This document shows positions 33,563 through 37,424 of a stretch of 48,408 nt of DNA, piece by piece. The stretch is from Rikenella microfusus (GTDB taxonomy: Bacteria > Bacteroidota > Bacteroidia > Bacteroidales > DYQK01). Position 1 is the first letter of the stretch, and every line of letters begins with the position of its first letter. The stretch spans positions 1 through 48,408 of the forward strand of contig DYQK01000007.1 of NCBI GenBank assembly GCA_020719385.1, in the 5' to 3' direction. Position numbers and translations under genes: made by a program. Under the pieces are notes generated by a model. The model saw nothing but the letters and a program-made list of their open reading frames with translations. It did no database searches and was not told the DNA's origin.

Positions 33563-35662
33563 TTAAAAATTCATATTCATAAAAACGTGATAAAGTTTAA
33601 TCATTTGCCCTTCGAAAAAATGTTCCGTTAGTCCGAGACGAATGTTGATGCAATTTTTTATATATTCTTCCGTTAAATCAAGCATTTGGCGTTTAGGAAT
33701 TTTACAAAGAAGAGCAAGTTGTTCAATATTTTTTTCAAATTTATAATTTTGCCATACGTCATCGAAATTTTTCATTTCGACATACAAAACCACAAAACAA
33801 TGTTTTGTGCCATTCGGATTATAATTTATCAACAATTTTAGTGCATGATTCATCGCATATTCTTGTCCTGTTTTTCCAAAAGAAGTTAATTTTAACGCTT
33901 CAAAAAGAGCCAATTCTTGATTATTATGACTAATTTTTAAATCTAAACGCCCAACATCTTTTCCTGTTTCAGAAGTTCCTTGACGCGCTTCCTGTTTAAC
34001 TATATAACTTTTTGCTTCCAAAAGAGAAACAAATAAATCATTATATCGATTTTCGTCATTATTGAGAGATAAATGTTTTGCTTGAATATCTTTTGCACAC
34101 CAAAGAATATCGTTTAAAAGTTGTTCATTCCAATCTTTTGGGCGATGATTTAACAAATCATCAATTAATTCTTTGATTTCAACGGGATAATAAGGTTCAT
34201 TTTTGCAATCTATTGTTGTTCTAAAACGCAATCTGCTTTTCAATTCTGTGTAGACAAACAAAGTCGGATTTTCGTTATTTTGACAAGTTTTACAATTGCA
34301 AGGCACAAGTTCGTTCCAGTCATTTTTGTAACTTTCGCTGATTTCGTTTAAATAATTTCGCAAAATTGCATAATAATCGCGTTTTTGTTCACCTTCGATA
34401 TAAATTTTCAAATCATTTTTTTCCTCATCAGACTTAATTAAAACCAACGTTTTATATTCATTATTTCGCAACAACATTCCTGTTCGCCATTTTTTCTCAA
34501 TGTCATTTTTCATTTTTACCATCAAACGCGGAATAATGGATTTCGACAAAAAATCTTCGTAATGATAAATAAATTTCAGAGAACGAACAAAATCAAACTT
34601 AATTTCTGGTTCGTTGACAGATAATAAATCAGGAATCAAAACATTTTCAGAATCAATGGCAAAACAAAGTTCAAATTTTTTCATTAAATGAATAATAAAC
34701 CGTTGTTTGTCGTCAGGATAATCAAAATCGTTGTCATTTCGCTTCGACAAAATATCTCGCAACCATTTTAACGGCATTTCTCCGTTTTGCAATTCGATTT
34801 TATCATACGAAATAATTCGATATACAGCATTTGTCACCCAATGCGGATTTAAAATATGCGTATCTTGCAAATCAAATTCAGAAAAATGCAATAAAATTCC
34901 TAAATTATCAAGATATTCGACTAATGTTATTTGTGCTTGCTCATCTTTTACCGTTTCGTTGTTGCAAATTTCCAAAAATTGCGTATAAGAAATGAAATTT
35001 GTTGTTACCTGAATTAATTTTTCACGAATGTTGAACCATTTTTTTATCCATGGCGTATGAACCATCTCGATTTGATTCGCAACTTGCGACAAACCTTCGA
35101 TAAATTTATCAATTCCTTCTCTTGTGGCACACGAAATTCGATAAAAAGCAAAAATATTCGGAAATTTTTGTCGCAATTCGGTTTCGTTTAAGCGAAAAGC
35201 AGGTTTTTGGTCAATTTTATTCATAATAACTATCACAGGCGAAGTGCCGCCAAAAGATTCTATCATTCGCAACCAATAATATTTTTTCTCATCCACGCGA
35301 CCATCAAGCACCAAAACATACAAAGAACGACGAGATAAAAAGAATTGATGCGTAGAATGTAAATATTCTTGTCCACCGAAATCCCACAAATGCAACGTTA
35401 TTTTAGAATGATTGCTGTCAACTTCGAAATCGTTGATATTAATTCCTTTTGTTTCGGGTTCATTTTTATCGAAAGGTAAATTTTGTAATTGTTTAATCAA
35501 CGAAGTTTTGCCCGAAGCACCTTCGCCGACAAATAACACTTTTGCCTCATTGACAGGTATTTTTTCATTTTCAGAAAACCAAACTTTTATTGCCTCTTTG
35601 CCCTGTTCAATAATTTCAATAGGAACATTTTCGATATTATCTATTATTTTTAAATCAGACAT
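33563..35662 (-). CDS. Roco-family GTPase (Roc-COR) with unassigned C-terminal, possibly nuclease-like domain
   Basis: A 699-residue multidomain protein. The Roc GTPase has G1 GEGASGKT (46-53), G3 DFGGQE (94-99), G4 NKID (148-151) and G5 SCAT (177-180). COR follows (about 205-400, with the winged-helix segment ITLVEYLDNLGILLHF and HILNPHWVTNAVYRII). A linker carries a CxCxxC (455-460) before WNEQLLNDIL. The last 160 residues are separate: RYNDLFVSLLEAKSYIV, then GRLDLKI (571-577) and LALFEALKL (584-592), spaced like the acidic core of PD-(D/E)xK nucleases but lacking the usual ExK lysine. Roco proteins normally carry N-terminal LRRs; none are present. A defence or signalling role is inference. 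Confidence 0.85.
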   Translation of the reverse strand: MSDLKIIDNIENVPIEIIEQGKEAIKVWFSENEKIPVNEAKVLFVGEGASGKTSLIKQLQNLPFDKNEPETKGININDFEVDSNHSKITLHLWDFGGQEYLHSTHQFFLSRRSLYVLVLDGRVDEKKYYWLRMIESFGGTSPVIVIMNKIDQKPAFRLNETELRQKFPNIFAFYRISCATREGIDKFIEGLSQVANQIEMVHTPWIKKWFNIREKLIQVTTNFISYTQFLEICNNETVKDEQAQITLVEYLDNLGILLHFSEFDLQDTHILNPHWVTNAVYRIISYDKIELQNGEMPLKWLRDILSKRNDNDFDYPDDKQRFIIHLMKKFELCFAIDSENVLIPDLLSVNEPEIKFDFVRSLKFIYHYEDFLSKSIIPRLMVKMKNDIEKKWRTGMLLRNNEYKTLVLIKSDEEKNDLKIYIEGEQKRDYYAILRNYLNEISESYKNDWNELVPCNCKTCQNNENPTLFVYTELKSRLRFRTTIDCKNEPYYPVEIKELIDDLLNHRPKDWNEQLLNDILWCAKDIQAKHLSLNNDENRYNDLFVSLLEAKSYIVKQEARQGTSETGKDVGRLDLKISHNNQELALFEALKLTSFGKTGQEYAMNHALKLLINYNPNGTKHCFVVLYVEMKNFDDVWQNYKFEKNIEQLALLCKIPKRQMLDLTEEYIKNCINIRLGLTEHFFEGQMIKLYHVFMNMNF

Positions 35663-36782: not shown

Positions 36783-37424
36783 ATGAATCTCGAACAAATT
36801 AAAAATCACCCAATTACACAAAAAATAATTGTTTTTTTCAAAGAACTTTGGAAGTTTTTGAAAACAAAACTTTTTATCAAAAATTTTCTCATCGCACTTG
36901 GAATTGCTATTGCGTTTTTTAGTTGTATTTTTTTGTTTTTAAACATTTTTACGCATCACGGCGAGTCGATGTTTGTCCCTGATTTTCGAAAATTATCTCT
37001 CAAGGAAGTTGAAAAAATTGCGAAATCGAAAAAATTGCGTTTCGAAGTTATTGATTCGGTTTATAATGCCGCAGATTTCAAACCTGGCACGGTTGTCGGA
37101 CAAACGCCGCCGCCGAATTTCAAGGTCAAAGAAGGCAGAACCATTTTTTTAACTATCAAAACTTTCAATGACGAGAAAATTCCAATGCCCGATTTTCGCA
37201 GTGTTTCGCTTATTCAGGCAAAAGCAGATATGGAAACTTACGGCTTTAAACTCGGCAATATTCGAGAAATTCCTGCCGAACACACAGACGTTATTGAACA
37301 AAATTACAAAGGAAAACCAATTTTGCCAGGAACTTTGATTATCAAAGGCGAAACTATTGATTTAGTTATCGGCAAAGGAGACAAAAAAGATGACGACCAA
37401 TCTTCCAAAAAAGACTCAATTTAA
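36783..37424 (+). CDS. Membrane-anchored protein with two PASTA domains
   Basis: A 213-residue protein with a short cytoplasmic N-terminus, one transmembrane helix (about 34-56), then two extracytoplasmic PASTA repeats. The first is about 63-128 (VPDFRKLSLKEVEKIAKSKK ... VGQTPPPNFKVKEGRTIFLTI, given in part) and the second about 134-197. A polar tail (KGDKKDDDQSS) follows. PASTA modules bind peptidoglycan fragments in Ser/Thr kinases and penicillin-binding proteins. No kinase or transpeptidase domain is attached here, a form common in Bacteroidota whose role is not established. It lies between the prenyl synthase and Crp genes. Confidence 0.88.
   Translation: MNLEQIKNHPITQKIIVFFKELWKFLKTKLFIKNFLIALGIAIAFFSCIFLFLNIFTHHGESMFVPDFRKLSLKEVEKIAKSKKLRFEVIDSVYNAADFKPGTVVGQTPPPNFKVKEGRTIFLTIKTFNDEKIPMPDFRSVSLIQAKADMETYGFKLGNIREIPAEHTDVIEQNYKGKPILPGTLIIKGETIDLVIGKGDKKDDDQSSKKDSI

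Follow-up and report, generated by a model that had tools for sequence, protein, structure and literature searches.

The Roco family of GTPases includes LRRK2, the Parkinson's protein, in which a kinase occupies the place of the C-terminal module that concerns us here. The Roco protein of Chlorobium tepidum (CtRoco; PDB 3dpu, 6hlu, 8r4b-d) is described as consisting of leucine-rich repeats (LRRs), Roc and COR only, and in its GTP-bound form it undergoes monomerisation and a large domain movement (PMC11052575). In the AP-GTPases of prokaryotes (LRR-Roc-COR-effector), Kaur et al. 2021 describe at least 24 interchangeable C-terminal domains; the main text of that paper names GT4, TIR, DRHyd, caspase, trypsin, FGS and EADs, and no restriction-endonuclease domain is named there at this position (PMC8195603). 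The protein studied here is encoded in a stretch of 48,408 nucleotides from Rikenella microfusus (assembly GCA_020719385.1, contig DYQK01000007.1, positions 1-48,408), which we call the window, by the following gene:

33563..35662, minus strand, Roco gene, 699 amino acids (P0001), ATG to stop

We favour, with moderate confidence, a reading in which this protein is a single-chain, GTP-controlled defence effector carrying a divergent PD-(D/E)XK phosphodiesterase with a displaced catalytic lysine. With CtRoco the window protein shares the Roc-COR tandem and intact GTPase motifs (phmmer expectation value, E, of 1.3e-90 to 3dpu over residues 10-455), but it has no LRRs and has a nuclease-like C-terminal domain added. 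With the AP-GTPases, as the main text of their description presents them, it has in common a Roc-COR core with a swappable C-terminus and the presence of several paralogues in one genome, whereas their N-terminal LRR sensor is missing from the window protein, though present in most of its relatives. The core comprises three domains:

35210..35542, minus strand, Roc GTPase domain, residues 41-151 (Pfam PF08477, E 1.4e-29)
34622..35044, minus strand, COR-A, residues 207-347 (Pfam PF16095, E 4.9e-34)
34157..34585, minus strand, COR-B, residues 360-502 (Pfam PF25497, E 5.9e-27)

All three scores lie well beyond the Pfam cut-offs and COR follows directly after Roc; among NCBIfam models, the small-GTPase domain alone exceeds its cut-off on this protein. 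The GTPase motifs are intact (G1 GEGASGKT 46-53, G3 DFGGQE 94-99, G4 NKID 148-151) and are invariant positions in the corresponding alignment (A4). Read directly and against Pfam, these motifs, together with GRLDLKI at 571-577 and LALFEALKL at 584-592, stand at the residues given to them in the original prediction, an earlier note made from the DNA alone. That note had also described the protein as LRR-less, which is right for the window protein (no LRR match in Pfam, and a chain that begins about 30 residues ahead of Roc) but not for its family: most Roco relatives carry LRRs, and four others without them were seen (two at locus L007, one each at L052 and L037). The note gave no strand for the gene. 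An LRR array hidden or lost beside the gene was also considered. Only 126 bp separate the start codon from a divergent polyprenyl-synthase-like neighbour; therefore no LRR is hidden upstream, and this candidate was ruled out.

The remainder of the protein is the module, whose conserved residues map as follows:

33566..34156, minus strand, C-terminal module, residues 503-699, predicted PD-(D/E)XK (restriction-endonuclease-like) domain (AlphaFold2, hhalign)
34052..34054, minus strand, E537, motif I glutamate, opening the first core helix, invariant 39/39
33941..33943, minus strand, D574, motif II, invariant 39/39, on the catalytic Asp in the alignments with HSDR_N_2 and Mrr_cat
33899..33901, minus strand, E588, motif III, invariant 39/39
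33836..33847, minus strand, H606-x-x-K609, motif IV helix after the third strand, invariant 39/39
33587..33589, minus strand, H692, last strand, invariant 39/39

No model in Pfam, NCBIfam or PADLOC covers residues 503-699, and the whole window protein matches 0 families of PADLOC 2.0.0 at E ≤ 1. One search of sequenced genomes yielded 80 loci with Roc-COR relatives; at 21 of these (22 proteins, mainly from Bacteroidota and mainly LRR-fronted) the tail was matched as well, and a profile built on the tail (A1) picked up the module in proteins without any Roc-COR. The final alignment, to which plasmid and prophage copies were added, holds 39 sequences including the window protein; the 38 relatives are 22-36% identical to it over the module. 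E537, D574, E588, H606, K609, Y614, F633, Y640 and H692 are identical in all 39. Since the tail recurs outside Roc-COR proteins, and since D574 and E588, on whose conservation the original prediction had depended, are invariant, it is a genuine separate and mobile module of the last ~160-200 residues, much as that prediction had delimited it (~160). A chance D..E motif, a candidate in its own right, was ruled out by the invariance across 39 sequences.

Profile alignment is the strongest support for a nuclease fold of the module. With hhalign, the module alignment (A3) scored 33.6 (probability 63%) against HSDR_N_2 (PF13588) and 26.3 (probability 18%) against Mrr_cat (PF04471), and with the 39 sequences these scores became 34.9 (probability 70%) and 26.6, respectively. 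As a benchmark, the true pair HSDR_N_2 versus Mrr_cat scored 25.3. The maxima over 40 column shuffles were 17.9 (HSDR_N_2) and 16.9 (Mrr_cat), reversed alignments gave 15.0 and 11.8, and the Roc, COR-A and COR-B domains of the window protein, used as further controls, reached at most 17.5. In the resulting register the catalytic Asp of both families is matched by D574 and the Glu of HSDR_N_2 by E588; the Lys of HSDR_N_2 is matched by residue 590, and the Gln and Tyr of its Q-x3-Y motif by K609 and Y614, respectively; thus the assignment of D574, E588 and Leu590 to the D, E and K positions of a PD-(D/E)xK core, proposed from the bare sequence, is matched residue by residue.

The AlphaFold2 models are consistent with this alignment. 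The tail of the window protein was modelled with a mean local confidence (pLDDT) of 79.5 and a predicted template modelling score (pTM) of 0.79, and its Flavobacterium form with 83.2 and 0.84. In both models a helix starting from E537 is followed by three strands, of which the second has D574 at it and the third contains E588, and then by a helix carrying H606 and K609, a strand, and further strands after it, so that the predicted core order is that of PD-(D/E)XK. The module would thus have in common with HSDR_N_2 and Mrr_cat its core order and the positions of the catalytic Asp and of motif III, and differ from them in a Leu or Phe for the catalytic Lys, in H606-x-x-K609 on the next helix and in extra C-terminal strands with H692. 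A motif III lysine shifted to the motif IV helix has been described in families of this superfamily by Knizewski et al. (PMC1913061), and K609 is a likely substitute of this kind for residue 590. Overall, the original view of an LRR-less Roco protein with a probable PD-(D/E)XK C-terminus is supported by these comparisons.

The module is also found in proteins of a different kind. At locus L095 (8240-14000, minus strand) it forms the C-terminus of a LmuA-like protein (PADLOC LmuA model PDLC03853) in an operon with LmuB and LmuC, the PADLOC E values of LmuA, LmuB and LmuC being 2e-53, 4e-152 and 3e-68; no other effector domain was found in this LmuA with Pfam. The LmuA effector of Lamassu is usually described as N-terminal, and the L095 protein, by ending in the module, departs from that layout. 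The window gene differs from Lamassu in having Roc-COR in place of the N-terminal region of LmuA and no LmuB or LmuC neighbour (no Lmu match among the 42 window proteins, PADLOC at E 1e-10). Among 247 genomes of the class, PDLC03853 had no match.

In the prophage P2-EC5 the module is the C-terminal half of ORF333 (residues 164-305, E 2.3e-36, with E, D, E, H and K all kept), which lies behind ORF555, an AAA ATPase similar to the OLD nuclease and to PtuA ATPases. The same module is thus served here by two genes and an OLD/PtuA-like ATPase switch, and in the window protein by a GTPase in one chain. The pair occurs in 5 of 5426 complete E. coli genomes; in two that were examined it is flanked by the replication endonuclease and portal genes (gpA-gpQ), at a P2 locus that Rousset et al. 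showed to be a hotspot of anti-phage genes (PMC9122126), and we regard this two-gene unit as a candidate defence system. The ATPase and module pair stands between gpA and gpQ of P2-like prophages of E. coli at L196:243-2913 (AM157364), L202:5001-7671 and L203:3792-6462, and a similar pair was seen on a Vibrio plasmid.

The module also ends large proteins of ~1250-1376 amino acids in records of Bacteroidia, Edwardsiella, Burkholderia and Salmonella:

L092:9976-14058, L093:7722-11765 and L097:7047-11075, ~1250-1376 amino acid module proteins
L197:4707-8465, L198:4665-8474 and L199:4761-8537, ~1250-1376 amino acid module proteins

Three of these were run against NCBIfam and had no match, and the L093 protein had none in Pfam either. 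Their neighbours include the PDC-M62A/B ATPase-HNH pair (Septu-like, beside one of them), an ATP-dependent endonuclease, PIN-helix-turn-helix genes and a reverse transcriptase; one copy of the module adjoins a Shedu gene (SduA). The occurrence of the same domain in anti-phage systems makes it probable that the window protein is a defence nuclease under GTP control. The broader proposition, to which we give even chances, is that the module forms a PD-(D/E)XK effector family, so far uncatalogued, whose catalytic lysine has shifted to motif IV, and that it is an interchangeable killing part common to defence proteins of at least four kinds (Roco GTPases, Lamassu LmuA, the AAA-ATPase pair of the P2 hotspot and the ~1250-1376 amino acid proteins).

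Weighing against the reading of the window protein as a defence nuclease are observations on its fold, its catalytic residues and its surroundings. As regards the fold, Foldseek found no match at E ≤ 0.001 in the PDB or among viral structures: the best nuclease-labelled entries were weak (EcoO109I at E 0.2, a halovirus PD-(D/E)XK protein at E 0.02 and probability 0.93), and in the PDB tyrosine phosphatases and unrelated folds outranked nuclease-fold entries, with template modelling (TM) scores of ~0.3 or less. The sequence profile of the module likewise found nothing relevant among PDB sequences and no confident relative there, nor was there a confident relative on viral contigs. Thus, of the structural test that the original prediction called for, the PD-(D/E)XK order was obtained and a confident nuclease match was not. 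On these grounds the module might have another fold altogether, the D..E pattern being convergent and the function a different enzymatic or a structural one. We hold this to be very improbable: hhalign to two independent PD-(D/E)XK families beats all controls with the catalytic residues in register, the predicted core order matches, and structure comparison scores within this superfamily can fall below threshold (Knizewski et al., PMC1913061). The tyrosine phosphatase matches were judged spurious (TM ~0.3, root-mean-square deviation mostly > 7 Å). In the comparison with SduA_C, for which the alignment was very small, no similarity to the module appeared. Several RPB5 proteins were also among the weak Foldseek matches; the N-terminal domain of RPB5 is classed with the PD-(D/E)XK fold.

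As regards catalysis, the motif III Lys is missing throughout the family, residue 590 being F, L, M or V in every relative and Leu in the window protein. The window copy, moreover, departs from nearly all its relatives at four near-invariant residues (D557Q, Q558E, T559A, E572R), because of which it may be impaired, while the core acids, H606 and K609 are kept; the Flavobacterium form (L010) retains DQT and GELD at these places. In addition, a docking role, not a cutting one, has been put forward for the C-terminal part of LmuA (PMC10586767). All of this would suit a module that has the PD-(D/E)XK fold and does not cut, the absence of the Lys marking lost catalysis and the domain serving to dock nucleic acid or protein for Roc-COR, LmuB or the AAA ATPase. 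This alternative carries some weight but is unlikely, given that three acids, H606 and K609 are invariant in 39 divergent sequences of several architectures, a pattern more in keeping with an active site than with a surface that meets different partners. It is further opposed by the lack of any other Pfam effector domain in the L095 LmuA, and by the P2 module, where the partner already provides the ATPase.

The relationship between module and core was examined by placing 75 Roc-COR cores in a tree. There the window core falls in a group with support 97/99 together with module-less Roco proteins, apart from the main module-bearing clades; the module label changes at least three times on the tree, and two of these changes are forced by strongly supported branches, which indicates that the module joined Roco cores at least twice. 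The nearest core by identity (46%), from a Candidatus Aminicenantes metagenome-assembled genome (L001), has a TIR domain at the place of the module (E 2e-9 to a TIR structure): with a nuclease-like module in one protein and TIR in the other, C-terminal domains have thus been exchanged on one GTPase core, in the way that Kaur et al. describe for prokaryotic AP-GTPases (PMC8195603).

As regards surroundings, the neighbours of the window gene, as read from translations, are housekeeping genes (pyrC, fabD, polyprenyl synthase, ftsA, purH, rodA), fabD lying 36 bp downstream on the same strand. No defence island was seen among the 42 window proteins, the PADLOC matches there being to general families. 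Around the Roco-borne copies at large, several strong PADLOC matches (PDC-S05, PDC-S30, DolB and others) were obtained with the 80 neighbours from 16 loci, a small sample, and 80 fabD neighbours in relatives of the window organism, taken as a control, gave a handful, some to general families; the numbers of matches were similar, and the Roco-borne copies were not clearly above this control. The association with defence therefore rests on the non-Roco forms and on mobile elements: the link to defence put forward originally holds for relatives of the module in defence systems, and these counts gave no clear enrichment in the neighbourhoods of the Roco-borne copies. Such surroundings would fit an active nuclease with a resident role (in repair, or in control of the chromosome or cell envelope) and not an anti-phage one. 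We consider this quite improbable in view of the distribution of the module, which is sparse (7 of 395 genomes in a class-wide sample), expanded into paralogues within a single genome and carried by mobile elements. A Bacteroidales metagenome-assembled genome, GMC9, holds at least six module Roco loci (L003, L005, L006, L007, L008, L061), some with long LRR arrays and others with none, including a near-identical tandem pair in L007. Besides the P2 prophage, a Roco-borne copy lies on a Spirosoma plasmid, and another, on a Photobacterium toruni plasmid (L200:5703-8441), stands between a helix-turn-helix gene and tniQ in a type I-F CRISPR-associated Tn7-like transposon. Sparseness, paralogues, mobile elements and a swap with TIR at the module site are features typical of conflict genes.

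The window gene itself is intact, with zero internal stops over 33563-35662; a truncated pseudogene was ruled out by this full reading frame. Its G+C content (31.1%, and 26% at third positions) is slightly below that of most neighbours and points weakly to a foreign origin. The gene order around fabD differs from that of the window in all relatives examined. One further feature of the core is a cysteine cluster in COR-B:

34205..34300, minus strand, C455-x-C457-x2-C460 ... C486, COR-B, invariant in alignment A2

The CxCxxC motif occurs in 25 of 25 module-bearing Roco proteins and in 13 of the 61 other Roco reading frames, and the cluster (residues 455-486) is a possible zinc site. Elsewhere in the window, at 36783-37421, a protein of 213 amino acids matches the PASTA region of Stk1-type kinases (NF033483, E 2.7e-14) and has no kinase domain.

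These results can be brought together in a model of the window protein as a GTP-controlled nuclease, in which we infer catalysis, the role of K609, a nucleic-acid substrate, GTP gating and defence by the window copy. The Roc-COR GTPase would be the switch and the C-terminal 200 residues the nuclease, whose catalytic lysine would no longer stand in motif III, where this protein has Leu590, but would be K609 on the following helix, beside the acids E537, D574 and E588 as putative metal ligands. Infection would give a cue that alters Roc-COR in its nucleotide or oligomer state. The LRRs would sense this cue in most relatives; the window copy, because it has none, would sense it through Roc-COR itself or a partner. 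The switch would then release or dimerise the nuclease, which would cut the DNA of the invader or, in abortive infection, that of the host. Given the four changed residues and the lack of LRRs, the window copy may respond to an altered cue or be heading for loss.

That Roc-COR is combined with interchangeable effectors is already known from prediction; what appears uncatalogued in Pfam, NCBIfam and PADLOC is this effector domain, a mobile one, and its spread over several defence architectures. Bacterial Roco proteins serve as a model for the activation of LRRK2, and the predicted nuclease fusion would offer both a readable output for Roco activation and a testable Roco function, namely GTP-gated DNA cleavage on infection. 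If the reading is true, Roco GTPase-nucleases would be a single-protein anti-phage system, in which a GTPase of the LRRK2 type switches a nuclease.
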